The position numbers and the translations under genes were made by a program. DNA of 64,000 bases from positions 32,200-96,199 of the forward strand of contig CAMPDV010001716.1 in the NCBI GenBank assembly GCA_946699065.1, in the 5' to 3' direction. Shown in pieces: positions 5,207 through 62,660 of this stretch (position 1 is the first letter of the stretch; every line of letters begins with the position of its first letter). The stretch comes from Loxodes magnus. Its lineage: Eukaryota; Ciliophora; Karyorelictea; Loxodida; Loxodidae. Under the pieces are notes generated by a model, which was given only the letters and a program-made list of their open reading frames with translations, had not been told where the DNA came from and did no database searches.

Positions 5207-5395
5207 GGGAGGAGCAATCTTCCAACTGAAACTGACTTAAACTCTGGTATAAAAAAGTACCCCATAGAAGAATCAGCCAAGAGAAGAGAAGACAAGATCG
5301 AAGAGACATTAAGTATCATTAATGATGAAAAATGCCAGATACTAAGGTCTCTTAGGATAGCATTCCGATAGCGGCTCTATAGAAGATTTTAATTT
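5207..5395 (+). repeat. Repeat C, 3'-truncated copy
   Basis: Shares AGGGAGGAGCAATC-TCCAACTGA, CCAAGAGAAGA, ACTAAGGTCTCTTAGG and GCTCTATAGAAGA with the copies at 56937-57243 (+) and 32451-32765 (-). It lacks the terminal 33-nt hairpin of the full copies. It lies just after the AAT tail of the preceding ORF1 copy. Confidence 0.7.
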
Positions 5396-8300
5396 GGCTA
5401 CTAAACTCCATATTTTTAAAAAAATTAATAATAATAATTATTATTATTATTATTTTATTATATTTACAGTAATAAGTAATTTTAGTATATTTTCTGATTA
5501 ATTGTCTAGCTCCATATCCGTTTTATCTTACTCTTCAACATTTTTGTACTCCCAAGACTTTCATAGTTTAAAATTTCTTATAAAAACTCGTCATTTTGCT
5601 AAATAATTAGATTTATTCTTCGACTTTGTTATTTATGAAACATTTTATTCTAAATCTATCTGTTTTAACAATTTTCAGTTTGGAAAATTTTGATTAAGAT
5701 AAATTTAATTATAAGTCGCAAATTTGAGTAAATCATAGTTTTTTAAATCTTTAAATTTTTCAATCAAATCTTTTATAAATTCACATTGTTCAATATGTTC
5801 GATTGTATCCAATTATCCACAAATGGAAAATTCTAAATGTTTTATTTTGTAATGTCTTTTCTTCAATTCATATTAAAAGTTCTAATAAAAGTTCTTAGTT
5901 TTTATATTTAAATTATTTTTTGCTTTGTTCTTGTTAAGTGCTGTATATTTATAATAAAGAAATTTTTCTGTTAATAGATATTAAAAATACAATTTTTCAT
6001 CAGATAAAAATTCTGAAGCATTAGCATATTTAAGAAAATAATTTTTTCTTTAAGGATAAAAAAAAAATGTAGTAACAAATTCTTTTATTTCCTTTTTTGA
6101 CATTAAAGTTAAAACGAATTAATTGTTTTAAATATTGGCCTTTACATCCAGTAATCCTGAAAATTTTACTCTTGAACAAAGGATAGCTTAGGACTTCATT
6201 CGTCTGCTATTCTTATTTATTTTTTGGACTTTACAACTGAGATTTTTTACATCTAAAATTTATTTTTAGCATTACCGAATTGGCTATATTTTTTTCCTAT
6301 ATATTAAATCTAATTAAATTGATAATATTTAAAAAATCTTTATTTTAGATATTAATTATTTTTAGAAAAGTATTAGAAGAAACTAGTTTTATATTATTAG
6401 AATTATACTAATTAAAATTTTTCTATAACACAACCATCTAAAATAGATAAACTGGCTAAAATCTTGCATAAGAAAGTTTTGGAAAGGAGACTATAAATAA
6501 AAGTGAATTAATCAAAGTTATTAAAATTACAAATCATACACAAAAAGCCAATTCTAAAAGCAAAATAATGAAAATTTATTTAAAAGAGATATTAAAGAAT
6601 CTTAAGATAGCAATAAAATGAATCTAAGAAGAGAATGGAATGTAAGATTTTTATAATATGATAATAATAATAGATTAGCGTGATTTCTCCTTTTATAGAT
6701 CATCACGGTTTAAGATAAGTCTAAGTGAGGACTTGTTTATATAAAATTCATCTCTGCCTCTGAAATTGTTGATAGTTTTTTTCGTATTCTTTCCCTTCAG
6801 CTCCAATTTCATCTTGCTCTGAAAATAAATCGTTTTTTCTTTTAAGTTTATACGTCCTTTAGCTCCTTTTAATATTTTCTTCATTATAAAATTATTCGCT
6901 TCTTTTATTTATTAATTTAATTTCATGCCTGGATATAAATTTCTTCCATAAATCTTACCTTTTTCATAGTATATTCGATCCAGTTTGTTACCAAAGTTTT
7001 TTCTCTATTCTTGAAGCTTTTTTAAATTATTAAAATTGCTTTACCAGATGTATTTTTCTCTTGCAGTGCAAACATCTTAAAATATTTCTCTATTTATTGG
7101 TGCAAATTAGCTTTTACTCTTAGTATCCTTAGAATTTCCATTATTTTTTTTAATTGGGTTATTGATTGCATATATAAGGTAACCTTTGAATCTCTCTTCT
7201 ATTTGTTTTAATCGCAAATTTACGTCTTACATTTCTAATTTACTGCTAATTTCCTCTTTTAAAAACAATTTTTTGTCGTATCTTCACATGCTTTATAGCA
7301 AAATTCATTTAATACCGTGATTTGAGTTTTTCGATCTGATTTTTTGAAAAAAGCTGTTGAATCTCCTTTTAATAGTTCATGATTAAAGGCTTTTAAGTTC
7401 TTTCCTTTAGAAGAAATTAATCAATTTTATTATATCATTTAAAATCTAGAGGCCCTCCACTCAAGCATAGTTAGAGTGGTGAGATCTTCGCTCTAATCTA
7501 AATCTAACTAAAATGTCAGGCTTATATACGATTCAAAGCACTTATACCTTTGGATTTAGTTCTCTCTGGTGATAACCTTGTACAGGGTGTGAATCTAACC
7601 TTTGGAAAGAATATCTAATTTCTTGAGGGAGAATTTTTTAACAAGGAGAAGAAGATAAAGAACAAGACCAAGAAATCAAGCTGGAGGGAATCTTCTCTTC
7701 AAGATTGTTTAATAAACTTAAAACTTTTTAATTTATGGCCAAACAAATAAAGGGGACGCCACATTATTATATAAATAAAACGGAAAAAATGACTTCTACC
7801 TCAATAAAGAAAATTTAGATAACCTTAAATATTAATTACTAAAATAAACTTAGAAATTATTAGTATACCTTCACTTGTGCAATATATTCTAAATGTATCT
7901 AACCATTTATTTTATATTAATCTCTTTTATTTTTATTAAAATTGTAGCGATTTCTTATTCCATTTACTGAAGATTACAATACCAGCATATCATTATTTTC
8001 CTATAGGGAATATATTTTGCAACAGATTGTTATTCTATTTCCAATTGGTCATTTTATATTTAGGATTGCTCTGACTTACATATTTTCGAGTTTTAAATTT
8101 CTCTTATTATTGTTCTGTCTGTAAAATTCTACCTTAAATTTGTTGTAAGTGCGTTTTTAGAGCTAATTCCTATCGCAGTATTGAATTTTCTTATTTTAGA
8201 ATTTTCATAGCGTTTAATAGTTCATTAGTTCGTTGATAAAGATCTTTAATAGCCTTTTTTAATTCTTAATTCTCTATTTAAAAAAGGTAGAGATCATTTA

Positions 8301-9154: not shown

Positions 9155-9535
9155 TTCAATATTAATATTTAATATTAAGAAAAATGTTAACATGTTTCTT
9201 ACTAAAATTCTAGAAGTCCGATGAATCATGTCAGCTTCTCTAAATAGGGAATCTACTTATTAAACATTATTCTAAAATCTTGAGTCAAATGCTTCAGTCT
9301 TCTTGAATTAGGTCCAAATAAGAATTAGTTATTAAGTCGGTAATTAAAAGGCCCGTTAGTCAAACTTTCATACTGCTAGAGAGAACCCTCGGGATAAGTT
9401 AGGTATGTCTCAACGGAGCTTATCCACCCTTCCCCGTGGTGGCATCTAGTGCGAGATTACTCGCAATGCAGTATACACTGCACCAGATTACCTACTAGTT
9501 TGGCTGACGCAGCCGACATCCATTTTATATATCAT
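9122..9535 (-). repeat. Repeat A, near-complete copy with terminal hairpin
   Basis: About 410 bp, matched along its length by 41915-42320 in the same orientation and in part by 2366-2580. On the minus strand it begins near a GTCGGCTGCGTCAGCC block, has an internal hairpin GCGAG-TAAT-CTCGC, and ends with the 33-nt hairpin at 9122-9154. GC content is clearly above the surroundings. It looks like a SINE-like non-coding retroelement; the alternative is a 5' UTR of the downstream ORF1. Confidence 0.7.
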
Positions 9536-17924: not shown

Positions 17925-19391
17925 CTTTCATAATTTTAAGTATATCATAAATATTCTAATTTTATATTCAAACTTTCTTAGTCAAATTAAATAAATTGGA
18001 GGGAAAAAAATAAAAAAAATAAGCAAAAAAATAAAAATGAGAAGAAAAAATAAGCATAGTGTAACGTTTAATCACCTGAATAGAATGAAAATTAAAGAAA
18101 TAAAAAGAAGAATGGAAATATAAATGCATAAAAAAAAGTTTATAAAACAGAAGAAGAATAAATAAATTTAAATTATTTAATTGAAGAAGAAAAAACGCAA
18201 AAACCACAGGACAAACGAGAGAAAATTTATATTAATTTGAATAGCACTCTTAATTTAAAAGTTGAATGAAAAAATAGAAACGATCTTCCGTAATTTAATA
18301 AAGTAGGATTATAAAATTTAGGAAATACTTGTTGAATGAATTCTGCCTTATAGTGTTAATTACATACATCTCCTTTGGTTAAACACTTTCTTTCTGATGA
18401 TTGATAATAAAATCTTAATACAGAAAATAAATTTGGAACTGGAGGTGTTTTGACTAAAGAATTCGATAAGATCGTAAACGAAATATCATTCTCTTCTCTA
18501 TAAGTTTTCCGGCCTATAACTTTTAGATAAAAACTTTTAGATTTTACTCCAATGTTTACAGAAGAACAATAACATGACTCTTAATAATTTATCAAGTTTT
18601 TACTCGATGCTCTACATGAAGATTCAAATAGAATATCAGAAAAACCTTATATAGAAGGAAAGTCTTGCTAAGGCAAATCAGAAGAAGAAGTTGCTTCAGA
18701 ATGTTGGAATGCAAATTAAAAGAGAAATGATTCTAAGATAGTTGAACTTATTCATGGGTAATTTAAATCTTCTCTTACCTGTAAATAATGCAATTATGAA
18801 TCGATAACATTTGACCTATTCTAAGTATTTTGCCTTGAGATTCCTAAAATTAATAGTCAAAATAAAAAATAACGCAATCTAAATTAATAACAGATAACTC
18901 TTTAAGAATGCTTTAGTAATTTAGAAAAAGAAGAAGAGCTAGAAGGGTAGAATTAGTTTCTTTGCTCGACATGTAACAATCAAGTGAATGGAATTAAGAA
19001 AATTAATCTTTATAAAGTTCCGGAAGTTTTTATAGTTTATTTGAAAAGATTCAAACAAAATGCTTATAAAATTGAAAAAAGTGAAACTTCTGTTAATTAT
19101 CCAGTATCATTGGATTTAAGTCCTTTTTTGCCATAGAATTACTAAGGAACAAAAATTTATGATTTATACGCTGTTAACAATCACTCTGGGAAGGCAGGAG
19201 GAGGGCATTATTATACGTATGTAAAAGTGGATTAAGAATGATATGAATTTGATGATTCTAGAGTAAGCAAAAGTACAAGAAAGAAATTTCAAGATGCCTA
19301 TGCACTATTTTATCAAAGAGAAGTGAAAATATTAAAGAAAATAATTAACAATAATAATAACCTTAAACATTAATTATAAATTGTAATATGA
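17925..19391 (+). CDS. Ubiquitin-specific protease copy U1 (start unresolved)
   Basis: USP/UCH (peptidase C19) domain from [17 protein letters not shown] (catalytic Cys codon 18330) through [18 protein letters not shown], finger CKQCNYE...LCSTCNNQ, VYLKRF, and GGGHYYTYVK (catalytic His codon 19206) with EWYEFDDS. It ends at TGA 19389-19391. Trp is TGA at 18333, 18402 and 19239; the homologous codons in other copies are TGG (18333) or TGA. The frame is open back to TGA 17922 but has no ATG before the catalytic Cys, so a first exon and intron, or loss of the start, is needed. The domain itself is undamaged. Such enzymes cut ubiquitin from conjugates. Confidence 0.75.
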
Positions 19392-20806: not shown

Positions 20807-22033
20807 ATGAAAAATTATTTCATCAAGTTTATTGCCAGATTCATGAAACCCAAGAATAAAAATTAAAAAAAATGTACTGAATGTGAAAAATTATAGGCTA
20901 TTATTAAAAAAATGAAATAAGATGCTTAAAATAAAAGGGACTAGTATGTATAAACAGATGCATTTAAATAAACACCTCAAAAATAATAAGCTATTCATAT
21001 ATAATTATGTATGCAAGGAATGTAAAATCTAGGAAATACTTGTTGGATGAATGCTGGATTATAATGTCTCTTACATACTATTCCACTTGTAGGACATTTT
21101 AAGAATAGTTAATGGTAAAATAATCTTAATACAACCAATAAATTTGGAACTGGAGGTGTCATGACAAGAGAGTTCGCTAGTATTGTTAATGATACATCTA
21201 ATAAAGCTCAAGGAGCTTATATCCCTAGAAGCTTTAGATAAAAGTTAATATAATTCGCTCCTCAATTTACTTTAGGAAATCAACATGATTCTCAATAGTT
21301 TATCAACTTCTTACTTGATGCTCTGCACGAAGATTTAAATGAAATAAAAGAAAAACCTTATATTAAAGGAATACCTAGTAATGGTAGACCAGATAAAATA
21401 GTTTCGTAAGAATGTTGGGATAAACATTCAAGAAGAAATAAATCTTTCATAGTAGATTTAATACATGGATAATTAAAATAAACTTTAAAATGTGATTAAT
21501 GTAAGTAAACATAAGTAACTTTCGATCCTTTTTAAATGTTCTGTGCTGAGATTCCCAAGTAAGAAACAGGAAGAAAAAATTAGTAATAAAGATAGCAAAT
21601 AAACTTATATGATTGCTTCAGGTTTTTATAGAGAGAAGAACATTTAGAAGGAATGAACCAATTTTATTGTGAAAAATGCAAAAATCACGTAAATGGGACG
21701 AAAAATATTAATTTATATAAGGCTCCTGAAATATTCATTGTTTATTTAAAGAGATTCATTTAAAATGGCTATAGCGTCATAAAAAATGATGTGAGTGTCA
21801 ATTATCCATTAGAATTGAATTTGTAAGAATTTTTACCAGAATAGTACTAAGAATCAACAGTTTATGATTTGTATGCAGTGGATATTCATAGTGGAACAGT
21901 AGGAGGAGGACATTACTGAGCTTATGCGAAAGTAGACGGAGAATGGTATGAATTCAATGATTCGCATGCAGGAAAATGTAGTAATGCACAAACTTCAAAT
22001 GCCTATGTGCTTTTCTATCAAAAACGTAATTGA
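20807..22033 (+). CDS. Ubiquitin-specific protease copy U2, intact, 408 aa
   Basis: ATG 20807 to TGA 22031-22033, no frameshift. The N-terminal 75 residues are Lys/Gln-rich with a CTEC pair. The domain begins [23 protein letters not shown] (nucleophile Cys79, codon 21041), then [30 protein letters not shown], zinc finger CDQCKQTQ...[55 protein letters not shown] (His369, codon 21911). The Trp after HY is TGA 21917, where other copies have Tyr; GHYWAY is seen in some USPs. Four other Trp codons are TGG. All catalytic elements are present, so an active deubiquitinase is likely. I chose the first in-frame ATG; the conserved domain needs only the later part. Confidence 0.85.
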
Positions 22034-22653
22034 TATGTATATCAAGTTTAATAAATTTATTAAACATTAAAGTTTAAATTTCTTAGCATTTTTTACTTAA
22101 TTTAAATATCAAAGTATAAACAATATAAATTTTTAAATCCATTTGCTTAATATATTATGTATATAGTTTTATCTGTCTTATTAAATTTAAACAATTAATG
22201 AAAAAAATAAAAATATTAAATTTTAAGCAATTATAATTTTAAACTGATTAAGTTTCCTAGTTATTTAAACTTAAATTATTTAAATTTTTTTGGAAAAAAT
22301 TAAATTTTATAAGAATAAAGCTAACTCAAAATTAGATTTTAAGGAGTATTATTAAATATATAATTGTATGCATCTAAAGAATAAATGCTAAAAATGAAGA
22401 ATCTTTTTATAGAAATCATATTAAATTTTTTTTGTTGGAAAAATATAACAATAATATTGATATTTTGAGATAAATAATTCTAAAGAAAAACTTTAAATAA
22501 TCAAGATAAATTATTTTTTTATTACCATTAGAAAAAAGAATAAAATGAATATAATTTTATTAGTGAAGAATTTATAACTAGAGATAAATTAAATTATTTT
22601 ACAAAAAGATTTTACCCATTCAATTTCATCTTTTTTTAACTTAAAATCTATAG
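22034..22653. other. AT-rich intergenic stretch
   Basis: 3' side of U2; very AT-rich, nothing recognised. Confidence 0.35.
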
Positions 22654-24861: not shown

Positions 24862-25176
24862 CTTAATTAATTTCAATTAAAAAAGTTTTTGGACCGGAAA
24901 CTCCTTATCGATTGCACGACCCGACGCTCTCTTTTTATGGAATAACGGGGATATCCTGTTGTACTCCAGGCACAGCTACTAGGGAGCTCCATCGCTATGA
25001 GCAGCCAGGCTTCAAGCCCCTATCAAGAGCGGATAATCTCAAAGACAGTGTTCCCTTCAGAAAATGACTCTGATCAGGGACTTTCTCAGCGACAGGAAAG
25101 GAACTTGTTCCTAGACATAAAACCAGAAAGTTTAATCACGAAGGTCATTCTCAGCTCCCACCATCTTTTCAATTAT
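24862..25176 (+). repeat. Repeat B, copy 1
   Basis: About 315 bp, roughly 80-85% alike with 43562-43872 by eye. GC-richer than the surroundings. Shared blocks include ATAACGGGGATATCCTGTTG, GGGAGCTCCATCGCTATG, CAGGGACTTTCTCAGCGACA and the palindrome AGGAACTTGTTCCT. An open frame inside copy 1 is broken in copy 2 by a one-base indel, so it is probably non-coding: a SINE-like element or structured RNA. Confidence 0.7.
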
Positions 25177-27439: not shown

Positions 27440-29384
27440 TTTTCATTTCTTCTATGATAAAATAATAAATAGGCATCTTAAATTTTTTTTAATGACATCT
27501 TACTTACTCTTTAATCATCAAATTCATATCATTCTTCTCCTACTTTAGCATTAGTATAGTAATGTCCTCCTCTTGTACTACCAAAGTGATTATTTACTGC
27601 ATATAAGTCATAAATTGTTGATTTTTTGAAAAATTCAGGTTAAAATTCTTTAAGATCTAACTCTAAAGGATAATCTACAGGAGTATTGTCTTTTTCAATC
27701 GAATAAGTATTTTTTTTGAATCTTTTCAAGTTGATTATAAAAATTTCTGGAACTTTATATAGATTTATTTTCTTTTTTCCATTCACTTAACTTTTACATC
27801 TTTCGCAATAAAACTAATTCTATTCTTTTAATTCTTCGTCTTTTTATAAATAATTAAAACATTCTTAGAGAGTTTTTTACTTTTGGTAAAATTAATTTTT
27901 TCTTCCTGTTTCTTACTTGGGAATCTCAGCACAGAACATTTAAAAAGGATCGAAAGTTACTTATGTTTACTTATATTAATCACATTTTAAAGTTTATTTT
28001 AATTATCCATGCATTAAATCTACTATAAAGGATTTATTTCTTCTTAAATGTTTATCCCAACATTCTTACAAAACTATTTTATCTGGTCTACCATTACTAG
28101 GTATTCCTTTAATATAAGGTTTTTCTTTTATTTCATTCAAATCTTCGTGTATAGCATCAAGTAAGAAGTTGATAAACTATTGAGAATCATGTTGATTTCC
28201 TAAAGTAAATTGAGGAGCAAATTATATTAACTTTTATCTAAAGCTTCTAGGGATATAAGCTCCTTGAGCTTTATTAGATGTATCATTAACAATACTAGCG
28301 AACTCTCTTGTCATGACACCTCCAGTTCCAAATTTATTATCTGTGTTAAGATTTTTTTTTCAATTATCAGAAAGAAAGTGTTTGACTAAGGGAAATGTAT
28401 GCATTAAACATTATAATCCAGCATTCATCCAACAAGTATTTCCCAAATTTTGCATTCCTTAAAGACTTAATTATGTTGTATTATTTCTAAGTCTTTAAAT
28501 CGTTTGCATTTATGTTTCTTCTATTTATTATAAGTAAAAAGATTAACGTTATTTTTATTACAAACTATTCTTTGTTACTTTTAACTTTTCTTCTTCAATT
28601 TACAAATTTTTAATGTTTCAATTATCCTACATATTTTATCTGCTTAGATATGAATTTTAGTCAACTCCATAATTTTCTTATTATCGGTATTGATATTGAT
28701 ATTTAGTTTTTGCTGATATGATTCTTTGCTTTTTTACTGTTCCTTTTCTTATCAATCAAAATTGGTATTAAGTTTTCTCGTGATTTAATATTAACTTGTT
28801 TTTAATTATCGAAACCTATCTTAATACCAAGCTTAATTACTTTAACCTTTTTGCTTATTTTAGTTATATTGATTTAATTTTCATTCTTGTTCATATTTTT
28901 CTTTAAGCTTTAGATAATCAGACTGCTAAGGAGTATTAAACGGATAATTTTTTTTTTCTTACTTATATTAATTTTAATTTTCATTTACATCATTCCATTT
29001 TAATTTTTAATCTTCTGATCCTTATCTAGTTTATCTCTATAATATGGGTTTAGGATACAAAATAATTTAAGGATTTTATTAATAAAGTTTGCTTTTTTTA
29101 ATATCCTGTTACTCAATCTATACCTTAAATTAAGATTACGATTCTTACTAATAATTTTTATTTTAAAGATTATTCAAATAAGCCTTCATCTAATCTTGCT
29201 AATAATTTCTCATAATATCATTAATTTATTATTAGTTAATATAAGCAGTTTGACTTACATTTCTAAACGCATGAGGCTAAGATCCATAATTAGTTTAATA
29301 ACTTTATGCAAATGCTCTTCCTCTTCTTTCACTATTTACATAATTATAAGGTAAACAGTATGAACCTATATTTGTTCTATACAT
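27440..29384 (-). CDS. Ubiquitin-specific protease copy U3 with long Gln-rich N-terminus
   Basis: Minus strand. ATG 29382-29384 opens a Gln/Asn-rich N-terminal region of about 270 residues ([25 protein letters not shown]...), with good coding bias. The USP domain follows in another phase from [20 protein letters not shown] (Cys codon 28432-28434), with [18 protein letters not shown], a finger with Cys-to-Tyr change (CDQYK...YCERCK), and [20 protein letters not shown] (His codon 27562-27564). A 41-nt GT-AG intron at 28521-28561 would restore phase. Trp is TGA in DNWKKN and EEWYEF and TGG elsewhere. No in-frame TGA follows the domain until 27139-27141, so the stop may be lost. The lost finger Cys also hints at decay. 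Confidence 0.65.
28521..28561 (-). other. Candidate 41-nt intron in U3
   Basis: On the minus strand it begins GTAATAAAAA and ends AATAAATAG. Its removal joins the N-terminal Gln-rich frame to the USP frame (QETQMQ...QLSLQGMQNLG). A simple two-base frameshift is the alternative. Confidence 0.35.
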
Positions 29385-34984: not shown

Positions 34985-35298
34985 ACTTTTCACTTTAAAA
35001 AGAGATTAAAAAAGTCCAATAAGAAATCCCGAAATGTAAAGCTCCTATCCAGATAAAATCAAGGTAGAGCTTTTGAAATATGCAGAATGCTATCTTACTA
35101 TGATGCTTCTCTCTTTTATAATAATATGCTTAGATCTGGGAGAATACCTGATGAGCTTAACACTTCAGTCATATTTCCAATTTTTAAAAAGGTAATAAAG
35201 ATGATAGGAAAATTGACTTCCAATTTAACTTATAAATTCTAACTGAAGTTTTATGAAATATTTTTACTAAAAGATTATGCAATTTAATTTACTAAAGA
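34985..35298 (+). pseudogene. LINE ORF2 relic, part 1 (RT fingers)
   Basis: Reads IPKCKAP...PDKIKVELLKYAECYL, and SGRIPDELNTSVIFPIFKKG, NKDDRKIDF and LTEVLWNIFTKRLCNLIYQR in shifted frames. These are the N-terminal RT motifs (PDxI; G-IP-W--S-I-PI-KKG). It stops exactly where the ORF1-only element is inserted, and continues at 36271. Confidence 0.65.
35287..35298. repeat. Target-site duplication, left copy
   Basis: ATTTACTAAAGA; repeated at 36271-36282 on the other side of the ORF1-only element. The first ATT of the right copy could belong to the ATT tail, leaving nine unambiguous bases. Confidence 0.75.
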
Positions 35299-36270
35299 GA
35301 AAAAAATAAAATGGAATGTTTCAAAAAGGGTTTCCATACCACCTCCTCGAAGAAAGAGAGGAAACCAGAAGAAAATCTCTGATAATCTTCTTACACTTAA
35401 CCTTAACCCTTTTCTTAATAATTTAGTTACCTGGAATATAATAGAATTATGAAGAACGGAAACAGACTCAGAAAAGCACTCATGTACTTACTCCAATATC
35501 GGAGGAGAAGCCTAGAAAACAGGCGAAATCTGCTTTACACTAGGAGGTCTCAGATTTTAACTCTTCGGGCCAGATGAACATGGATCAGATCATTAAAGTT
35601 GAACTAAACCTCCAGAAGAGGTCAAAAAGCTAAGGAAGTACAATGAGAAGCTAATTCATTAACTTAACCTAGCAGAAGGAATAGAGTCAAGGCTCATGTC
35701 CTAGGAAAGAGAACTAAGCGCCTTTTGAAACATATCAGTCGGAATAACTAAGACTAAAATTAGCTTTAGAAACAGACTGAACTGGATAACAGACTTGGAA
35801 AAATAGAAGAGAAATTGCAAACATTTAAGAAAGAGTAAAGAGAAATTGGAGCTATACAAATGGAAATCGAAGCCTAAAAAGAGCAAACCCATCGAGGAAA
35901 ATAATTAAAAATCAAAAAGAAATGTTTCTGCTGTAGAAGCATATAATATCTTTATCAGAAAGTATAAAATTTTAATAGGAATAGAGAAGCTTTTGGATAA
36001 AAGAGATAAAAGAAGAAAAAAGAAGAAAAAAGAAGAAGTCAGAATGAAAAGATTGTATTGTAACCCGGATGGTTCAATATACAAGATTAAGTGGAACCAA
36101 GGCAAGTAAAAGGAGGGAAAACCTGGAAAAATTCAAGTTCCCAATCTCGCTAAAATTGGGCGACCCGAACTTTTATATTTAACAGCAGGGAACATGAACT
36201 GCTGTCCTCCTGACAGGGTTGAAAATCCCTAAAACGGAAAACATAAATTAATATTATTATTATTATTATT
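35299..36270 (+). mobile_element. ORF1-only retroelement, copy 1 (about 970 bp)
   Basis: Bounded by the 12-bp duplication. The 5' end is 12 nt of A-rich leader before ATG 35311. It then carries an ORF1 alike along its whole length to the intact copy at 61597-62478, a short 3' UTR and an (ATT)7-like tail at about 36248-36270. It contains no RT or endonuclease, so it must have been mobilised in trans, comparable in logic to mammalian HAL1. Confidence 0.8.
35311..36202 (+). pseudogene. ORF1 of element copy 1, frameshifted
   Basis: Starts MECFKKGFHTTSSKK and shares KPRKQAKSALHQEVSDF, GIESRLMSQERELSAFWNI and KKCFCCRS with the intact paralogue. A one-base loss near 35610 and a four-base loss near 35735 break the frame relative to the copy at 61.6 kb. 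Confidence 0.7.
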
Positions 36271-38035
36271 ATTTACTAAAGAAACTTAACTCATTCAAGC
36301 CAAATGGGATTCATAGTAAAAGAGATAATCAACTTAGTAGATCTGGATGATCTAACAAATAATAGATATCTTCCGCAATAAAGCTTAAGGGAAAGTCAAT
36401 TTAATAGAAACTTTATTAGATGTCGAAAAATGCTTGGATTCAAAGAGAGGCTGTTATTTGATTAACTTAAAAAATTACATCACCAATATTAATCATTAAA
36501 ACATTTGAATTGTTCTAAGAAAATCTTAGTTCATCATTTCAGATAGATGAAAAAAATTCTAGACATCTTTAATATAACAATAAAGTTATGAAGGAAAAAT
36601 CACGTAAACCCGTGTCAGTTATATTGAGAAATGGAATCGTGACTCTTTATTTAGAAAATAAAAGTAAATTTATAGGATTTAAATACCCACATTAGATAAT
36701 AGTTTCATATGTAGAGGATGGACAGATGAATTAGTTCTTTATAAAAACTAAAAGAGAACATGAAAGTCTTAATAAACGAAACGAATGGAATTTTTACTTG
36801 AACCCATATAAAGATAAATATACCTAAGTAGGAAGCTATCTAAAAAACTAAAAATAAAGAATTAAATTAAATCTGAAGATTGGTGATTAGCCAATAATTT
36901 AAAAATAATAACATATTTGGAAATATTTCTGCGCTAAAAAGGAAATTTTAAAAATCATGAAAGAAGCTGCCTTTATATATTTAACTGCTATGAAAAAGCT
37001 TTATTTACATTACTATGGTATAAAAAATGTGATTTTTTGACGTTTCAAAACTTTGTGTAGAATTTTCACTCTTCCAAAAGCTGAATTTATGGGGAAATTA
37101 GTACCTTAAATGCTTAAAATGGAACCTTTGTTCTGATGAGTAAAATTGATGCAAATATACAATTCATTACAAGGAAAGCTTTCTAAGCACCATTATAACA
37201 TTTAACGAGTCATATTATGAAGATCTGAATTAAATGTCCTTAAAGCACATTATAGCTCTGATATTCTTTAAATAATTTTACAAATAAGAAGGGAAAGTAT
37301 TGATTATCCATAATCAAATATAGGTACGCTTTTTGAAACAATTGGAAAGAAGGATAAGAGTACTTTGACGGCTTAAAAATATTGGCTGCAATCTATAATA
37401 CTTAATAGGATAACTCAGAACGTAATTGCAGTTAAAAATAATTTACTAAACATATTAAAATGTAAATATAGCCTAAATTCTATACAGCTGTAGCCTGAAT
37501 ATTTTAAAGGATGCCTACTGCTAAAATATATACTTAATAATTTAAAAATCTATACTAGTTTCCAGAATTAACTATAATAGACTAGATAAATAATATAACA
37601 GAGAAATTATAAGTATATATAGAATCCAATCATTCAACTTCCAGAAAGATCTTTAAGACCATCATTTCCTGCTGACAGTATGCTTAAAATCTGTTGAAAT
37701 TATGATAGTTTTAAGTATATAATAGAATGTAATTACTATTCATACATAAGAGAATGGCTATAGTATAAGATTGGGAATTTTGAAATAAAACGTTTGATTT
37801 TTGTTATCAAGCTTATATAAAATATGTTTCTTAGAACTCAAGCAATAAAGATATATTTTTAAATCAAAATATTTCATCTAATTGCAACTTGACCGAAGAA
37901 TATAATAGAGTTATTTAAAACAGAAGAGAAAGAATAATCGAACATATTTAAATAAGAAATGCTAATAAAAAGAAAATTAAGTAATGAAACTTTTTAAATT
38001 TAAATTTTTTTAATTAAAGAAGAAATTGAGACAAT
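36271..38035 (+). pseudogene. LINE ORF2 relic, part 2 (RT palm to C-terminus)
   Basis: Resumes IYQRNLTHSSQMGF after the insertion and follows the window-start ORF2 through CRGWTDELVL (catalytic ADD decayed to TDE), FWRFKTLCRIFTLPKAEF and SYIREWLQYKIGN. TGG at 36719-36721 and 37755-37757 corresponds to TGA 449 and 1511 in the better-preserved copy. Many frameshifts; dead. Confidence 0.75.
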
Positions 38036-41177: not shown

Positions 41178-41249
41178 TTGCCTCACCGAGAATCGAACTC
41201 GGATTGCTGGATTTAAAGTCCAAAGTGCTAACCGTTACACCATGAGGCA
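41178..41249 (-). tRNA. tRNA-Gln, anticodon UUA (reads UAA)
   Basis: 72-nt cloverleaf without intron. Acceptor TGCCTCA/TGAGGCA (7 bp), D arm GTGT...GCAC with the A-box-like TGGTGTAACGG, anticodon stem TTGGA/TCCAG with loop CTTTAAA (anticodon TTA), T arm CCGAG-TTCGATT-CTCGG, discriminator A. CCA is not encoded. The anticodon pairs with UAA, a stop codon in the standard code. Glutamine identity is inferred from the U1-A72 pair and the use of TAA in USP genes here; identity elements were not tested. This fits the reading of all genes in the window. Confidence 0.93.
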
Positions 41250-41914: not shown

Positions 41915-42320
41915 AGAGCGCATAGTACCTCGTTGGCGCGCAGCTCTTTAAATATTAATATTTAATATTAAGAAAAAGTGTTCTCATACTTCTTGTTGTT
42001 CTTCTAGCTGTCAAATGAGTCACATCAGCTTCTCCTAATAGGGAATCTGCTTATTAAAATTCATTCTCAAATCTTGAACCAAATACTTCAGTTTTCTCGA
42101 ATAAGATTCAATAAGACTTAGTAATTAAGTCATTAGTAGACCCGTCAGATAAATTTTCATACTGCTAGCGAGAATCCTCAGTCAAAAAAAGTTAGACTTG
42201 TCTCTTTCGAGTTTGTCCACCCTTCTCTGTGGTGGCATCTATTGCGAGATTACTCGCAATCCAATTTGTACTGCATGAGATTACCTACTAATTCATCTGA
42301 CCATTGCAGATATCCATTTT
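41915..42320 (-). repeat. Repeat A, copy with terminal hairpin
   Basis: Same length and order as 9122-9535, including GGTGGCATCTA, the GCGAGATTACTCGC hairpin and TACTGCTAG-GAGAA. The terminal hairpin is 41915-41947. Confidence 0.75.
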
Positions 42321-43561: not shown

Positions 43562-43872
43562 ATTAATTAATTTCAACTAAAAGAGTTTTGGACGGCAACT
43601 TCTTGCAGTTTAACGACCCCAACACTCCCTTCATGGGATAACGGGGATATCCTGTTGCTTTCGAAAAGCAGCTGGCAGGGAGCTCCATCGCTATGGGCAA
43701 CCAGGCTTCAAACCCCTACCAGGAGTGGATAATCAAAAGGAAGGCGTTCCCTTGCAAAGGTTGACTTTGACCAGGGACTTTCTCAGCGACAGGAAAGGAA
43801 CTTGTTCCTACCCATAAAACCAGAAAGTATGATTCAGAAGGTCAATCTCAGCTCCCACCATCTTTTAATTAT
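43562..43872 (+). repeat. Repeat B, copy 2
   Basis: Partner of 24862-25176 in the same orientation, with the same ends (TTTCAA-TAAAA... and CAGCTCCCACCATCTTTT). Confidence 0.7.
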
Positions 43873-45187: not shown

Positions 45188-46375
45188 ATGGGATCAAAAA
45201 TATCTGATTGCTGCGGATGAATTTTTAATAAAAGGAACAATGCTAATGAAGCTTAAGAAAGAAGCAAGAGTAATCTTTAAAAGAAAAGTAATATTTTTAA
45301 ATAATAAAAAGAAAGCGAGTCTCTACTAAGAGAAAAAACGAATGATAAAATATCAATGTGAAAAATTGGATTTAATAACCTAGGAAATACCTGTTGGATG
45401 AATTCTGGATTGTAATGTCTATTACATACTACTCCTCTTGTAGGATACTTTAAGAATTATTAATGGAAAAATAATCTTAATACAACCAATAAATTTGGAA
45501 CTGGAGGTGTTATGACAAGAGAATTCGCTAACATTTTAAACGAAATATCGAACAATACACAAGGATTTTTTAGTCCTTCAACTTTTAGATAAAAGTTAAT
45601 ACAATACGCTCCTTTATTTACTTCAGGAAGACAACATGATTCTCAACAGTTTATCAACTTCTTACTTGATGCTCTACACGAAGATCTAAATTAAATAAAA
45701 GAAAGACCTTATATTTAAGGAATACCTAGTGAAGGTAGACCAGATGAAATAGTTTCTTAAGAATGTTGGGGTAAACATTTAAGAAGAAATAAATCTTTCA
45801 TAGTAGATTTAATGCATGGATAATTAAAATAAACCATTAAATGTGATTAATGCTAGTAAACATAAGTAACTTTCGATCCTTTCTAAATGTTCTGTGCCGA
45901 AATTCCCAAATAACAAGAAAGAAAAAATACTTCACAACAAGTAAATCTTGAAGATTGTTTCAAATTTTTATAGAAAGAAGAATATTTAGAAGGAATGAAC
46001 CAGTTTTATTGCGAGGTATGCAAAAAATAAGTAAATGGAACGAAAAGTATTAACTTATATAAGGTTCCTGAAATATTCATTGTTTATATAAAGAGATTCA
46101 TATAAAATGGCTATAGCGTCATAAAAAATAATATGAGTATTAATTATCCATTAGAATTGAATTTATAAGAATTTTTACCATCAAGTTACTCTTAATCTAC
46201 TCAATATGATTTATATGCAGTGAATATTCATTCTGGATCGGTAGGAGGTGGACACTATTATGCCTACGCGAAAGTGGACGGAGAATGGTATGAGTTCAAT
46301 GATTCACATGCAGGAAGATGTAATAATGCTAAATGTTCAAATGCTTATATGCTTTTCTATCAAAAGCATGGTTGA
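45188..46375 (+). CDS. Ubiquitin-specific protease copy U4, intact, 395 aa
   Basis: ATG 45188 to TGA 46373-46375, no frameshift. The N-terminus MGSKISDCCGWIFNKR fits an N-myristoylation signal (MGxxxS) followed by a Cys pair suited to palmitoylation, so membrane anchoring is inferred. The USP domain runs from [19 protein letters not shown] (Cys69, codon 45392) through [20 protein letters not shown], finger CDQCQQTQ...FYCEVCKKQ and VYIKRF to [24 protein letters not shown] (His356, codon 46253). Trp in CGW and MWK is TGA; four conserved-domain Trp codons are TGG. Gln codons are mostly TAA/TAG. All catalytic residues are present. Confidence 0.88.
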
Positions 46376-47029
46376 TTTCTTCTTCAAAATTTTAGAATTT
46401 ATTAAAATATTAAATTAAATAATATATTAAAGCAATTTAATTTAGCATCATATTTCACATTAATACTTCTAAAATAGCTTGAATATTTACTAAGTAAATT
46501 ATCTTATCTATTTAATATATTTAATATATTTAAATTTCAGTATTAAAATTAAAAAAAACCTAATTGTAAGTTTATTATAGTTTTGGAAATTGATTATTTT
46601 AAACTGAATTAAATCTGTTTAATTAAGATTTCATTTTAGAAAAATAGAAAAATATAAATTAAATAGAATAAATTAAAAAATGTAAGTTAAGAATTACAAA
46701 CTAGAAATAAATTGAATTATTTGATAATGGATTTCTTTTATTAACATCATTTTTTTTCTAACTTTAATCGTATATCCAAGCTTACAAATTTCTACACTAT
46801 CTTTTTTAAATAAGTTTAAAAATAGTAAAATATTGTCATTTTTGATTTATAGTATTTAAACTAAAATTCTATTCGTTAATTTTAATTTTTTATTATTAAT
46901 AAAAATTTATAATTTATATTAAGACTTTAGCATATACATTTTTAATTATGCTCAGAAAAGAAAATTTTAATAGAGAATAAATAGAAAAGAAGAAGCAAAA
47001 AATACAGCGTTAATTGATTTATAAGGATA
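46376..47029. other. AT-rich intergenic stretch
   Basis: 3' flank of U4; nothing recognised. Confidence 0.35.
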
Positions 47030-47300: not shown

Positions 47301-47882
47301 ATAAAACCAGCAGGAGGTCTAACTATGAACTGAATGCATTAATCAAAAACAAAAATTTCTTTATCCCTTCTAGAAAAATCAGAAAGTCAATCTGAAATAT
47401 ATAAATATTCTGAACATCAAACTTTTATTAAAATTTATTAATTAATGGAGTTTCTCCTTTGGTGACTGAATAAATAATTATTCCTGAAAGTATTTTTATG
47501 GAATAACCAGACAATCTTTTTCTGTTACCGAGTGATGGTATTTGAGCTATTTACAGAAATGTTTACTAAAACATAATATATTTTTTAGTTCTAAATAATC
47601 ATAAAAAGAAATAAAGTTTTAATTTTAAATAAAATAAAAGATCTTTTAGTTATATCGATCTAACACAAAGCAACAACTTTTTTTCATCAGACAATGGAAA
47701 GATCTTATGGAAAAATCAAGAAAAATGGAAATGAGTTTGAATAATATTAGAAAAAGGAGACCGCTACAAACTTCAAAAATCTTCAGACTTCTAGATGAAG
47801 AAAAATTTTATTTGCCTTTAATTAATAATATTTAACTAAATTTAAAATAAAAGATTTCCGTACCTGAACTTTCAACCAGGTA

Positions 47883-48617
47883 TCAGTGGTAAATTTTTTC
47901 GTGGTTGTATTCCACGACTTTTTTGTAAATGAATTGTTATCACAAACGATTCTCTTAGTTTCTTATGAGTAATTTTTATTTATAAACTCCTCATTCAGTT
48001 ATTCATAGTATATTTAATTTCTTCAGGTTCTTTACTCTTCATTTGCTTGATAGCCTTCATTCTTTACAATGTCTTAGTAAGTGATATTTAGATTAACAGT
48101 ATCAACAATTTTAATATTGTTTCTTTACTTTCTTTTCGAATAAATATTTCTTTCTAATACTTCAATTATTTTGCTAAGATTTGAATCAATTTGCTCTTAA
48201 CTTTACTTTTCTTAATGCTTGCTAAAGTAGATTTTCTTTTATAATCATTCTTTCCGATTATTTGAAATTGGATTAAGACATTTCTTAAAGTTAATTTTCT
48301 GCTAATAAACTATTTTTTATCTGTTACTTTTAAGAATTAACAAATCGTTTTTTATCTTCTATGCAATTCATTAGCTCCTCTCCTTGATTAAAGAAAGTTT
48401 TTTCCTATTTTGAAATTTATGCTTTCATTAGTTTAATTAATTTTAGAGTAATTTGTTATTTTAAATTCCGTGATTAACTTATTCGGTCAGACCAATAATT
48501 ACTTTACTCTCTGAAGATGAGCTAGACCCTCGATTCTGTCTTTTTTAACTTCTCGTTAGTCTTTTGATTTTTTTATTTTCTTTTTTAATTCTTAGAGAGA
48601 TGAATGTTCTATTCCAT
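47883..48617 (-). CDS. ORF1-like zinc-knuckle protein, open copy
   Basis: Minus strand from ATG 48615-48617. A basic N-terminus and coiled coil (QGEELMNCIEDKKRFVNSQK, then LLQQALRKVKLRANW) are followed by a canonical knuckle CWYCQSKYHLLRHC: Cys171, Cys174, His179, Cys184, i.e. C-x2-C-x4-H-x4-C. All Trp but one are TGA, so the gene is open only with UGA=Trp. I end it at TGA 47883-47885, but the frame stays open further and the real stop is uncertain. Confidence 0.6.
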
Positions 48618-48779
48618 TTTTTTTACTTTTTATTTGTACTTAATTAATTAATTAAATATTTTAGTTTATAATATCAAAAGATTGGCTTCAACTAGGGCCT
48701 TTTACCACCTCCTTAGGCCAGGAGAGAAAACCAGAAACATGTTTGTATTTGATTTTTATTAATATTTGATTTTGATTAT

Positions 48780-49399: not shown

Positions 49400-49825
49400 T
49401 TTTTCTTTTTAAATATTTCTTCTTTTTCACTTAAGAAGCATCTTCATCTTTTCTATTTCTACTTGGATTTCCTTTTATATATGCCTTTCTTCTATCTCAT
49501 TCGAATCTTCTTGTATAGCATCAATAAGAAGTTGATAAATTGTAAGGAACCTTTTTTATTTCCTAAAGTAAATTAAAGAGCGAATTATATTAACTTTTAT
49601 CTTAAAGTTAAAGGACTAAAAAATCTTCTGATATTGTTCAATATTTCACTTACAATATTAACGTATTCTCCATTCATTACACATCCAGTTCCAAATTTAT
49701 TATTTGTATTAAGATTTTATTTCAATTTTGGGAAAGGAAGCATTTGACTAGAAGATGTGAGCGTATCATACATTATAACCCAGAATTCATCCAACAGGTG
49801 TTTCCTAAAATTTACATTCCTTAAA
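49400..49825 (-). pseudogene. USP relic U5
   Basis: The minus strand starts [20 protein letters not shown] and runs through a frameshift near the N-terminal Trp motif to remnants of the FINFLLDA and EERH/K region. The finger and the His box are absent. Upstream of the Cys box the GGAATG block of other USP copies is kept. Confidence 0.75.
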
Positions 49826-50189
49826 GACTTAATTGTTAAGAAAATATAATAAGTTAGTCTTGCCTACTTTATTATTAGATCTGTTTATTATTTTAAAAAA
49901 ACCACACATTAGAAATTTTGCTTTTTTAATACTTTTATTAATTAAATTAGATTTCTCTTTTTAATTGATTAGCTAACTTTATCTTAAATCTCTGATAGTT
50001 CTATATTATTTTATTTTTAATGATATGGAAGATTAAATTATTGAAAATCATTATTTTAAATATTCTACTCTTAGTTTAATTTATTTATCATTTTTATTCC
50101 TTTTTTATAATTTTTGTTCTAATTATAAATATTTTTAGCAACAAAATAAACCTAGACCGAGGAAAAAGATACAAGAAAATAGTGCAGTC

Positions 50190-57243: not shown

Positions 57244-57960
57244 AATCTTATTTATTTAAAAAATTTAAAAGTGAAAATAAATAAGATGAACCATTTTCTT
57301 AGTCTTAAAAATTAAAAAATTAAATAATAAAAATTCAGCTAAATATATAAACTATAACTGAAATATTTTATTATTATTTTGAAAAACAATTGTAAAATGT
57401 TGGAATTGAAAATTTAAAGATTGAATTATTATGCTAAATTGATAAAAGATTAAATAATTTGATATATTCCTTTTTAAAATTATTTCAGTATAATTTTAAA
57501 TATTTATCTTTATTTTCTTTAGAATTATTTAAATCAGATATCTGAAATAGAATTAAAGTTTCTAACAAAAGTATCTTTACTCTATTATCTAATTTTATAA
57601 ATAGATCTATCATTTTTATTTCCTTTAAAAGATTTATAAGATTATATTTTTAATATTGTTCTTTTATTTTTAAGTAAACTCAATTTTAACACTTTACTTA
57701 CAAACATTTTTATTTTGCAAAAAATTTATTTTTATATCTAAAAGCACTTAAACATTTTAGAATATTAATGACTTATCAATGTAATTTGTATTATTTCATG
57801 CTGCTACTTATCTTTTATAAGATAGATAAGATAATTTACATAATCAAATAATCAAACTTTTATATGCTTTTGATATTTTACTAGTTCAAATTATTTTGCA
57901 GTTTAGAAATTTTAATTTTAAATTTAATGTGTAATAAACTTATTAATTTTGATATACTCT

Positions 57961-59290
57961 TCAGCCATGCTTTTGATAGAAAAGCATATAAGCATTTGAA
58001 CATTTAGCATTATTACATCTTCCTGCATGTGAATCATTGAACTCATACCATTCTCCGTCCACTTTCGCGTAGGCATAATAGTGTCCACCTCCTACTGATC
58101 CAGAATGAATATTCACTGCATATAAATCATATTGAGTAGATTAAGAGTAACTTGATGGTAAAAATTCTTATAAATTCAATTCTAATGGATAATTAATACT
58201 CATATTATTTTTTATGACGTTATAGCCATTTTATATGAATCTCTTTATATAAACAATTAATATTTCAGGAACCTTATATAAGTTAATACTTTTCGTTCCA
58301 TTTACTTATTTTTTTGCATACCTCACAATAAAACTGGTTCATTTCCTTCTAAATATTCTTCTTTCTATAAAAATCTGAAACAATCTTCAAGATTTACTTG
58401 TTGTGAAGTATTTTTTCTTTCTTGTGATTTGGGAATTTCTGCACAGAACATTTAGAAAGGATCGAAAGTTACTTATGCTACTTACATTCATCACATTTAA
58501 TGGTTTATTTTAATTATCCATGCATTAGATCAACTATGAGAGATTTATTTCTTCTTAAATGTTTATTCCAACATTCTTAAGAAACTATTTCATCTGGTCT
58601 ACCTCCACTAGGTATTCCTTAAATATAAGGTCTTTCTTTTATTTAATTTAGATCTTCGTGTAGAGCATCAAGTAAGAAGTTGATAAACTATTATGAATCA
58701 TGTTGTCTTCCTGAAGTAAACAACGGAGCATATTGAATTAATGTTTATCTAAAAATTGAAGGAATAAAAACTTCTTAAGCTTTATAAGATGTATTGTTAA
58801 CAATATTAGCGAACTCTCTCGTCATTACACCTCTAGTTCCAAATTTATTGGTTGTATTAAGATTATTTTTCCATTAATTATTCTTAAAGTATCCTACAAG
58901 AGGAGTAGTATGTAATAGACATTATAATCCAGAATTCATCCAACAAGTATTTCCTAGATTTTACAATCCTTACATACTTAATTATATATGAACTACTTAA
59001 GGCACTTACGTTGCTTTTTTGTTTGTAATTTAAGATGATTAAACTTATAATCACTATTATTATTAGGAAAGTTTAGAATTTTCTTTATTATTTAGTTTTA
59101 CTATTTTTGTTTTATCCTACTCAGACTATTTTTAATATGCCTTTAGTTTTTTTTAGTTTTTTTACTTAGAAGACTTTTTGTCTTTTTTAGACTAGTGATT
59201 GATATCTTTTGGTTAAGGTTTTGATTAATCTTTATTTTATGATTCTAAATCATCAGAAGGATTAAATCTAAATATCTACTGTTTAATATA
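57961..59290 (-). pseudogene. USP relic U6, frameshifted
   Basis: Closest to U4. On the minus strand a Lys/Gln-rich N-terminus (NPSDDLESQNKDQSKPQPKD...) runs in phase into [20 protein letters not shown] one-base loss after the first finger Cys pair, and one-base gains at the EEYLEGMN and VCKK blocks, break the frame relative to U4. The His box [21 protein letters not shown] and the terminal TGA (57961-57963) remain. Probably a recent pseudogene inserted in arm 2. Confidence 0.8.
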
Positions 59291-60212: not shown

Positions 60213-61142
60213 ATGAAGTAAAAGAAAAGACAGGACATTAACCAGCCAACTCTTCCATCTTCTCCTCCCAAAAAAGTAAAAAATTACAGAGGAAAGGATC
60301 AATATAAAAAATTTTACTTCAAGCAGAGATTGGAGTGGCCTTATCAAAGAATAAATTCTTGAATTTTAGTGGAAGCAGGATAAAAATGACAGAAGGTCAC
60401 AAGAAGGGATTTTTGCAGGCTCCATAGATAAAGGAGTAAAAACGAGAGACTTCTAATTATTTATCCACCATGTCTTCTTTAGTAAAATAATAATTTTCTT
60501 AATCTTAATAGCATCCAACAGTAGAAAATTAAAAATAATCTTAAATAAAATAAGAACTTAAATAAACAGAAACAGAATAAAACGAATAATAAAATGACTT
60601 TCTTCCTAAACCAAGACTAAGTAACTATATGAAATCCGATAATGCTAAAACAGAAAAATGAAGAATAAATACTAATTGAAACTCTTTTGAAATCTGTTCG
60701 AATTCTGTAAGAAGAAGCCAAAATATTAAGGTAAGAAAACAAAAAATTATTTGAAAAAAAGATAAAAACTGAAGAAAAATTAGTCAAATAAGAAATCAAA
60801 GTAAAGCAACTTGGACAAAAAAGACCAGAATCTTTAATCTAAGAAATAAAAATGGAAGTAGAAGACAATAGACAAATAGAAACAACTAATATTAGAAGGA
60901 TTCTCAAGAGATGTTACCTGTGCTAATCAAGTTTCCATAATTACAAGAGATGCAAGATATACAAGAAAAAGAAGGAGAGAAACAGCGAAGAAGTATGAAG
61001 AGAATTAACAAGAATTTATGTGACGAAGGACGGAAGAATTTACAGAAAGAGAATTTTCCAATCGAGTTCCAGAACTCCGATAAAACTAGGTGACCCAAAA
61101 TTTTATTTTAAGCCTCAAGGAGCGATCATTAGTTGGCAGTGA
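60213..61142 (+). CDS. ORF1 zinc-knuckle protein, intact, 309 aa
   Basis: ATG 60213 to TGA 61140-61142, no frameshift. The N-terminus contains NQPTLPSSPPKKVKNYRGK (basic), then a Lys/Glu-rich coiled coil (about residues 150-205), KMEVEDNRQIE, and a canonical knuckle RCYLCQSSFHNYKRC: Cys234, Cys237, His242, Cys247. The C-terminus SSRTPIKLGDPKFYFKPQG is shared with the ORF1 at 61.6 kb. Several TGA codons lie inside and read Trp. After the stop comes a short 3' UTR and a (TTA)4 tract at about 61187-61200, so it is probably another ORF1-only element; no clear target-site duplication was found. Predicted role: RNA binding in a retrotransposition particle. Confidence 0.78.
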
Positions 61143-61499
61143 AAATGAGGTTGAGATTCCTCAAAATCGCAAACACTTAATTTAGTTTATTATTATTAGT
61201 AGAAGCAGAATTTTAAAATAATGTTTTGATGAATTTGAGCAGTCATGGAATTGAAAAATATCTTAGAATAACTTCAAAATAATATTAGCTTTCACACTAA
61301 GGATGTAAATATACATACACTCTTTTTAATTCCAATGAGAATACGAAACTAAGATGAAAGAACTAGATCAAGATTTATGAGTAATATATTAGCAAAGAGA
61401 AAAATATTTAACAAAACAAGAAAAAATAAATCAAAAAGCAAGAGTGAAGAAAATAGAATCAGCTTTACCTCAACTGATTTAACAAAAATCCTAATAATT

Positions 61500-61590
61500 C
61501 GGTAAATCAACTTAGATGGAATTTAAAAAAGTGTAAATCAGATTAAAGACTTTCAAAAAGAAATTCTGCGTATGTATTAGCACAAGACAC
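61500..61590 (+). pseudogene. Host ORF1, 5' part of its knuckle
   Basis: Reads MEFKKVQIRLKTFKKKFCVC, then ISTRH, i.e. the motif and knuckle of the CYIC...HLWR type with the first Cys changed to Phe. Interrupted by the element at 61591; continues at 62559 with LWRNC. The upstream part of this ORF1 (about 61.2-61.5 kb) is too decayed to bound. Confidence 0.6.
61579..61590. repeat. Target-site duplication, left copy
   Basis: AGCACAAGACAC; the right copy at 62547-62558 is AGCCCAAGACAC (one mismatch). Confidence 0.75.
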
Positions 61591-62546
61591 AAAAAAATGG
61601 AAGGCTTCAAAAAGAGTTTCTATACCACCTCCTCGAAGAAGGAAAGGAAACTAGAAGCAAATATTGGACAGTCTTCTTACGCTTAACCTTGACCTTTTTC
61701 TTAATAATCTTAGCTACCTGGAATATAATAGAACTATGAAGAACGGAAACAGACTCAGAAAAGCACTCATTTACTTACTCCAATGTCGAAGGAGAAGCCT
61801 AGAAAACAGGCGAAGTCTGCTTTGCACCAGGAGGTCTCAGAGTTTAACCCTTTTGGCCAGATGAACATGGAACAGCTAATTAAAGTTTAACTAAATCTCC
61901 AGGAAGAGATCAAAAAGCTAAGGAAGTACAATGAAAAGCTAATACAATAACTTAACCTAGCAGAAGGAATAGAGTCAAGGCTCATGTCCTAGGAAAGAGG
62001 ACTAAGCGACTTTTGAAACATATCACAAAGTCGGAATAGCTAATATTAAAATTAGCTTCAGAAGTAGTCTGAGCTGGATAGCAGACTCGGAAAAATAGAA
62101 GAGAAATTGTAAACATTTAAGAAAGAGCAGAGTGAAACTGGAGCTATGCAAATGGAAATCGAAGCCTAAAAAGAGAGAACCCATCAAGGAAAATAATTAA
62201 AAATCAAAAAGAAATGTTTCTGCTGTAGAAGCGTATGACATCTTATCGATATGGAAATTTTAATAGAAATAAAGAAAATATTGGATAAAAGAGAAAAAAA
62301 GGAAGAAAAAAAAAGAAGTCAGAATGAAAAGATTGCATTGTAACCCGGATGGTTCAATATACAAGATCAAGATGGAACCAAGGCAAGTAAAAGGAAGGAA
62401 AACCTGGAGAAGCCCGAGTTCCCAATCTTGCTAAAATTGGGTGACCCAAATTTTTATATTTAACAGCAAGGAGCATGAACTGCTTCCTCCTGACGGGGTT
62501 AAAATCCTAAAGCGGAAAACGTCCAAATAATAGTATTATTATTATT
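61591..62546 (+). mobile_element. ORF1-only retroelement, copy 2 (about 956 bp), intact
   Basis: Bounded by the 12-bp duplication, with six A before ATG and an (ATT)4-like tail before the right copy. Alike to 35299-36270 over its whole length. Both begin a few bases before the ATG, so both look full-length rather than 5'-truncated. It inserted into the zinc-knuckle codons of another ORF1. Confidence 0.85.
61597..62478 (+). CDS. ORF1 protein of the ORF1-only element, 293 aa
   Basis: ATG 61597 to TGA 62476-62478, no frameshift. MEGFKKSFYTTSSKKERKLE, then KPRKQAKSALHQEVSEFNPF; coiled coil about residues 92-200 (EEIKKLRKYNEKLIQQLNLA, EGIESRLMSQERGLSDFW); MQMEIEAQKE; knuckle KKKCFCCRSVWHL with Cys207, Cys210, His215 but no fourth Cys; C-terminal KPEFPILLKLGDPNFYI. 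TGA at 61693, 62014 and 62236 must be Trp and at least 15 TAA/TAG must be Gln for the frame to hold, so this gene is also evidence for the code. Likely RNA-binding retroelement protein. Confidence 0.82.
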
Positions 62547-62660
62547 AGCCCAAGACACTTTGGAGAAACTGCAGTTAAATAGACAATCCAAAATAAAATT
62601 TTAAAAGGCATAATTATCTTTTGGAAAAATGTGATGCGAAATTATAGAGGAAGAAACCAT
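62547..62660 (+). pseudogene. Host ORF1, part after the insertion
   Basis: Begins with the right target-site copy, then CTTTGGAGAAACTGC (LWRNC in the host frame) and QIDNPK, closely matching the relic at 50300-50390. Confidence 0.6.

Follow-up and report, generated by a model that had tools for sequence, protein, structure and literature searches.

ORF1-like-only units with ATT-repeat tails in the genome of the ciliate Loxodes magnus

Can a gene that resembles the first open reading frame of a LINE, separated from any copying enzyme, behave as a mobile element in its own right? This question is raised by a locus of the karyorelictean ciliate Loxodes magnus (contig CAMPDV010001716.1, positions 32,200 to 96,199 of the forward strand; these 64,000 nucleotides, the whole stretch that we analysed, are referred to here as the window), where two copies of ATTTACTAAAGA flank a 972-bp segment, unit A, within the reverse-transcriptase (RT) region of a decayed LINE, named LINE-B here. 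The positions of unit A, its parts and its relatives in the window are collected in Table 1.

Table 1. Unit A, its interrupted target and related units (window coordinates)
Feature	Position	Strand	Remarks
Unit A, ORF1-like-only retroelement	35299..36270	+	972 bp; decayed ORF, ATG at 35311
Left target-site duplication of unit A	35287..35298	+	ATTTACTAAAGA
Right target-site duplication of unit A	36271..36282	+	ATTTACTAAAGA
5' head of unit A	35308..35371	+	common to L061-type LINEs; about 80% identical over 64 nt
Zinc knuckle remnant of unit A	35923..35964	+	CX2CX4HX4C; CFCCRSIQYLYQKV, CFCCGSVWHLYRKC in copy L008
3' stem-loop of unit A	36215..36230	+	AGGG-TTGAAAAT-CCCT; stem covaries between families
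(ATT)n tail of unit A	36253..36270	+	next ATT (36271-36273) may be tail or duplication
LINE-B RT region split by unit A	34985..37757	+	decayed; outer limits approximate
Unit B, second copy of the unit A family	61591..62543	+	88% identical to A; (ATT)n tail
Left duplication of unit B	61576..61590	+	ATTAGCACAAGACAC
Right duplication of unit B	62544..62558	+	ATTAGCCCAAGACAC (14 of 15)
Unit C, related family	60379..61196	+	knuckle CYLCQSSFHNYKRC at 60912; stem-loop GAGG-TTGAGATT-CCTC
Unit F, related to the H family	47827..48627	-	knuckle CWYCQSKYHLLRHC; stem CCTGG/TCAGG; short TATTATTAATT tail

An insertion within a LINE reverse transcriptase

The coordinates, the 972-bp length, the ATT tail and the 12 nt of unit preceding the ATG, all given in a preliminary description of this DNA, proved correct. 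When stretches were drawn from the same locus as a control for the duplication, the left flank of the unit was matched equally well in 7 of 300 trials. The preliminary description had also proposed that the flanks rejoin into one interrupted RT reading, and this was confirmed by alignment to L065, an uninterrupted LINE: with unit A taken out, the flanks restore the RT reading and translate as ..LIYQRNLTHSSQMGFIVKE.., aligning through the joint with LYNYIYERNILHPAQFGFIRKR of L065, and the duplication itself supplies the residues I-Y-Q-R. The joined flanks matched L065 in a frame that crosses the joint (tblastn, E 5e-4); in that frame, neither flank by itself gave a tblastn row at E 1. The right flank also matches a LINE at the start of the window, and a Pfam search with the LINE-B pieces yielded nothing of use. 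Among the fetched copies that occupy this site (site A), the LINE-B reading is found upstream of the unit in 7/7 and downstream in 6/7, the seventh copy stopping one base past the tail.

The ORF of the unit is readable only when TAA and TAG are taken as Gln and TGA inside the ORF as Trp (table 27), and in unit A it is disrupted by frameshifts, which marks this as a decayed copy. Between 3 and 9 in-frame TGAs, most commonly 8, interrupt each of the RTs listed from our RVT_1 search, and TGA is therefore a sense codon too; the Loxodes magnus code is described as table 27, with UGA as Trp or stop (PMC11441545). The window holds a tRNA gene with the anticodon UUA, which reads UAA (41178-41249, minus strand), and this fits Gln at UAA.

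Copies across the genome and their common 3' end

We searched the assembly (705,730,643 bases in 7,843 contigs) with the unit as query. There were 4,919 first-look candidates; 40 were scored, all of which cover nearly the whole unit (40/40), and 30 copies were fetched, which fall into 11 insertion sites by their flanks (7 loci at site A, 9 at site B, where unit B lies, 6 at one other site and one each at eight sites). Loci that share a site look like duplicated or repeated contigs. Ranking of the hits by score under-represents copies that are truncated or lie in longer contexts. On one contig (G000:C1853, L010-L012), the same insertion repeats about every 14 kb, as either a long tandem array or an assembly repeat.

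Pairwise identity among the 11 copies, one per site, is 87-94%, and their ends are regular. The start is constant at all 11 sites, with 6-15 nt between the duplication and the start codon (GTG in L017), and an ATT-repeat tail of 2 to 7 perfect consecutive ATTs is present at all 11, imperfect in L025 (2) and L019 (3); the stretch of L005 terminates one base beyond the tail. Target-site duplications exceed chance at 8 of the 11 sites (within-locus control, ≤13 of 300 controls as good); those of L008, L027 and L028 do not (55, 42 and 18 of 300 controls as good). The duplications vary in length, as strings of 10-19 letters with 0-2 mismatches, and the left copy opens with ATT at 6 of 11 sites vs. 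5.3% expected at each (binomial P 8e-6), an excess that may be inflated, since the duplication match could extend into the tail. The copies make up a dispersed family.

An autonomous LINE has its endonuclease (EN) and RT in the same element. About 1.2-1.5 kb on each side of the unit was compared with four LINE queries, by which other clades could be missed, and no LINE reading adjoins the unit as an ORF2 at any of the 11 sites. LINE readings occur in the flanks at three sites only: L024, with a piece of an L061-type LINE 1.03 kb downstream; L008, with a 31-aa match upstream on the opposite strand; and site A, where the flanking RT is the interrupted target and not the unit's own enzyme. The observation that would have told against independent movement, namely that all copies are internal to longer elements with ORF2 attached, is thereby contradicted. 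The same data bear on a first alternative, that an autonomous LINE with two ORFs is represented here by its ORF1 part, its ORF2 having been deleted or lying elsewhere: the ORF is directly followed by the tail, with a flanking duplication at 8/11 sites, and the one site with a LINE reading next to the unit is the target at site A. Variable-length duplications, the ATT-repeat tail with no LTR and the lack of RT and EN in the 972-bp unit are the hallmarks of a non-autonomous non-LTR retroelement that we observed, and from these sequence features we consider it probable that the units are non-autonomous, protein-coding non-LTR retroelements, which a LINE enzyme would copy in trans.

Besides unit A, the window contains three such elements (units B, C and F). 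The flanks of unit C, TAGTGGAAGCAG and TAGTAGAAGCAG, agree at 11 of 12 positions, and those of unit F, which are AT-rich, at 18 of 21, both judged by eye and without a chance control. The H family, to which unit F is related, is present in L064 (minus strand) and in L067, with the knuckle CWYCKSRWHLLKNC and, in L067, AAGAAAAAAAGTTAT on either side of the unit; L068 is a shortened C-type copy.

An ATT tail and, ahead of it, a 3' stem-loop whose stem covaries are common to at least three families. The 8-nt loop, TTGARAWT (TTGAAAGT in F), occurs in all of the A, C, H and F types, where an ATT-rich tail follows the stem; in L008 (A), C and L067 (H), the TGA of this loop shares the frame of the ORF, as judged by eye. 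The pattern TTGAGATTCC-N15..45-(ATT)4 gave 77 + 189 rows in the genome vs. 0 + 0 for the reversed control, long tails yielding several rows each. Ten pattern places among the matches listed were fetched (two of several kb, eight of about 350 nt); a C- or H-type ORF end lies upstream in 10/10, and no RT was seen there, with ~300 nt upstream read in eight of the ten. In 24 segments representing types A, C, H and F, pairing in the inner stem of four pairs stands at 93.8%, both sides change in two of these pairs, and the covariation score is 0.556 vs. a mean of 0.174 for shuffles (0/500 reach it) and at most 0.226 for slides (0.643 on 17 cleaner segments). Since the changes fall between families, this covariation amounts to about four independent states and not to 24 events. 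The outer stem also looks covarying by eye; a stem of equal length arises, however, in 15-26% of the shuffling trials of each family, and we regard it as suggestive only.

This 3' end is informative about a second alternative, that LINE enzymes produced the units as retrocopies (processed pseudogenes) of a host gene encoding a CCHC protein. The unit does resemble a Loxodes-type mRNA: its leader is short, and the tail or the end of the unit follows the last in-frame TGA at a distance of about 30-50 nt, and Loxodes 3' UTRs are reported with a mean of 53 and a median of 41 (PMC11441545). However, it ends in ATT repeats and not in poly(A), the covarying stem-loop is common to families whose ORFs have diverged, there have been several separate expansions, and the 5' head is held in common with a LINE, all of which makes retrocopies very improbable.

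The encoded protein and the resident LINEs

The copy L008 has an ORF of about 300 codons open (table 27). It starts with a head peptide, MESFKKSFYTTSSKKERKPEE; a long stretch rich in Gln, Lys and Glu comes next, helical in appearance and by eye possibly a coiled coil, and then KKKCFCCGSVWHLYRKC, a CX2CX4HX4C knuckle whose motif is also found in other copies; the unit A remnant of it has lost the histidine and the last cysteine. Pfam found no known domain in the L008 reading and a PDB sequence search nothing at E 0.1, and it is therefore the motif that assigns the knuckle. The final in-frame TGAs are located within the 3' stem-loop and next to it, the ORF ends reading HELLSS-TGA-RG-TGA-KS in L008, WQ-TGA-K-TGA-G-TGA-DS in unit C and QQETG-TGA-DS in L067 (all by eye). 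Selection on the ORF is only weakly visible within the unit A family (median dN/dS 0.49 vs. 0.62 when changes are placed at random; of 55 pairs, 43 fall under the control mean and only 2 under all 40 controls). Coding is indicated more strongly by the layout of ORF, knuckle and stop, which diverged families have kept in common.

The protein gave no significant match to the ORF1 of the LINE L061 or to the ORF1-bearing frame of the LINE L062 (best BLASTP E 2.2), and is therefore better called ORF1-like than a stray copy of a LINE ORF1. The preliminary description had concluded that the ORF1 gene moves on its own: movement without an attached ORF2 is borne out at 11 sites, and the designation as an ORF1 gene is not, given the lack of a match to the ORF1 of these two LINEs.

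A genome search with RVT_1 gave 3,403 candidates, from which 150 were scored and 30 loci cut out; all 30 form one family, 96-99% identical to L061 (L031 is L061's own locus). L061 and L064 have about 5.5 kb in common, head included. In L061 the order is head, ORF1 with CCLCKVKGHTDQQC, Exo_endo_phos_2 and RVT_1, and L062, like L061, carries its own ORF1 with CCHC; Pfam found nothing in the ORF1 of L061. The head of the unit reads as a peptide M..FKKGF.TTSS..ERKPE. It is 76-83% identical over 52-68 nt to L061, L064 and L066, which are the three L061-type stretches extending to the 5' end; no match to it was found in the stretches of L062, L063 and L065. Several of the changes between the A and L061 heads are silent in the ATG frame (by eye). 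This common head hints that the RNA of the unit and that of L061-type LINEs pass through one machinery.

The 3' ends tell another story. The L061 family terminates in a hairpin, GAGCTGCGCACCAACGAGGTGCTACGCGCTC, and then (TTTA)n; the hairpin is present in 26 of 33 rows examined (L031 and L061, one locus, are both among the rows), and within 45 nt of it (TTTA)2 occurs in 26/26 and (ATT)4 in 0/26. With a different 3' end and tail and a common head, the unit therefore shares its beginning, and not its end, with the L061 family. As a partner by 3' end, an L061-type LINE was accordingly rejected; LINE-B, also considered as a candidate partner, looks in L065 as if it ends in (TTAA)n (one copy, by eye), and no LINE with the 3' end of the unit was found among the 26 rows of L061 type whose 3' hairpin could be read.

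The head of about 50-70 nt in common with L061-type LINEs is what speaks for the unit as a fragment of a two-ORF LINE. Between that head and its EN-RT, however, L061 holds a different ORF1, and together with the tail, the duplications and the flanks this leaves an origin as a LINE fragment largely contradicted and most unlikely. A third alternative is a two-part retroelement, in which the ORF1-like protein and EN-RT reside on separate, mutually dependent mobile units. ORF-only families are numerous and no copy was read with an RT of its own, as such an arrangement would have it; against it, no RT-only element sharing the 3' end of the unit came to light, and L061 and L062 have their ORF1 in cis and therefore need not depend on the unit. 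We judge a two-part element improbable, if slightly less so than the retrocopy and LINE-fragment explanations.

A further knuckle-bearing ORF, which starts with MASKKQ, lies in the window at 54863-54016 (minus strand) and also downstream of the LINE in L061, from which its knuckle, CYVCNKQHQWKYC, is taken; a similar start, MSPKKQ, is found in L063 directly past the 3' end of its LINE.

A proposed route of copying and comparison with known elements

The units hold no copying enzyme, and therefore most likely spread by borrowing the RT of other retroelements. For a non-autonomous element copied in trans, the following route may be proposed. The element RNA would be almost nothing more than one mRNA, comprising a 5' leader of about 6-15 nt, a single ORF some 300 codons long (for the head peptide, a middle part of helical appearance and the CCHC knuckle), in-frame UGA stops in and around the 3' stem-loop, and an (AUU)n end. 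The encoded protein would most likely coat or bind its own RNA. A LINE endonuclease/RT supplied in trans would nick the target; where the top strand of the target reads ATT, the free 3' end AAT could pair with (AUU)n and prime copying, that is, target-primed reverse transcription, and integration would leave the short flanking duplications that are present at 8/11 sites. Given that its loop is conserved and its stem covaries, the stem-loop beside the tail is likely to be the mark that the enzyme recognises.

SINEs and other short LINE-dependent elements borrow an enzyme in trans, and their 3' end is often the recognition mark. SINEs, however, are non-coding and have a pol III head derived from a small RNA, whereas the unit has a long ORF, as in L008; Rfam (gathering threshold) and ARAGORN gave no hit in the unit, the one tRNA of the window lying outside it. 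HAL1 (half-L1) of mammals is described as a non-autonomous derivative of L1 that encodes only ORF1p (PMC5753468). The unit is non-autonomous as well, the single protein that it encodes may be of the ORF1 type, to judge from the CX2CX4HX4C motif in L008 and other copies, and the units may work in principle like HAL1; we claim no likeness by descent. Two features of HAL1 are lacking in the unit: homology to a LINE ORF1, as compared with L061 and L062, and a 3' end in common with a LINE, as compared with the one family of L061, with which the unit shares its head and from which it differs in its (ATT)n tail and its stem-loop. The LINEs rnd-1_family-27 and -19, described from the same Loxodes magnus genome, have EN and RT, which are absent from the unit (PMC11441545). 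ORF1-only retroelements are known from mammals as L1 derivatives; the protein of the units described here has no visible relation to the ORF1 of the two resident LINEs compared. In the main text of the genome paper (PMC11441545), no term starts with ORF1, gag, SINE, zinc knuckle or non-autonomous, literature searches covering open-licence papers returned no description of such elements in ciliates among the best-ranked titles, and passages of a Dictyostelium paper (PMC5633606) present no ORF1-only element.

A wider and distinctly tentative idea, which we think somewhat unlikely, is that these families form a guild of 'gag-only' elements, each with its own CCHC protein and all with a common RNA 3' mark, which would be obligate partners or parasites of EN-RT elements, swapping 5' heads with LINEs and descending from no LINE ORF1. 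If this were true, the unit of selection would be the ORF-carrying RNA and not the enzyme-carrying RNA. With such a group one could ask how an ORF1 protein serves an RNA that has no enzyme of its own, and which LINE enzyme reads the 3' mark. Part of the large fraction of unclassified repeats described for this genome (PMC11441545) might also consist of these elements.

The window contains further repeats and knuckle-like ORFs. A dispersed repeat of about 240 bp (24929-25169 and 43625-43866), in which ARAGORN found no tRNA, may hold a box-B-like motif and is possibly a tRNA-derived SINE (by eye). Hairpin-rich-looking repeats at 9180-9508 (minus strand) and 41974-42301 adjoin a LINE-type 3' hairpin, a similar stretch lies near 2370-2460, and none of these has an Rfam hit at the gathering threshold. 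A knuckle-like ORF at 4300-5454 (plus strand), CYYCKSQLYLWKNC, has Y for H and ends near an ATT-rich stretch, and a further one, CKICKSLWHLSRKC, lies at 9706 (minus strand). Finally, six repeated coding stretches occur in both orientations (18275-19319, 20987-22080, 27451-28489, 45368-46419, 49525-49834 and 57914-58999), which, from their translated motif, we take to be ubiquitin-protease-like.
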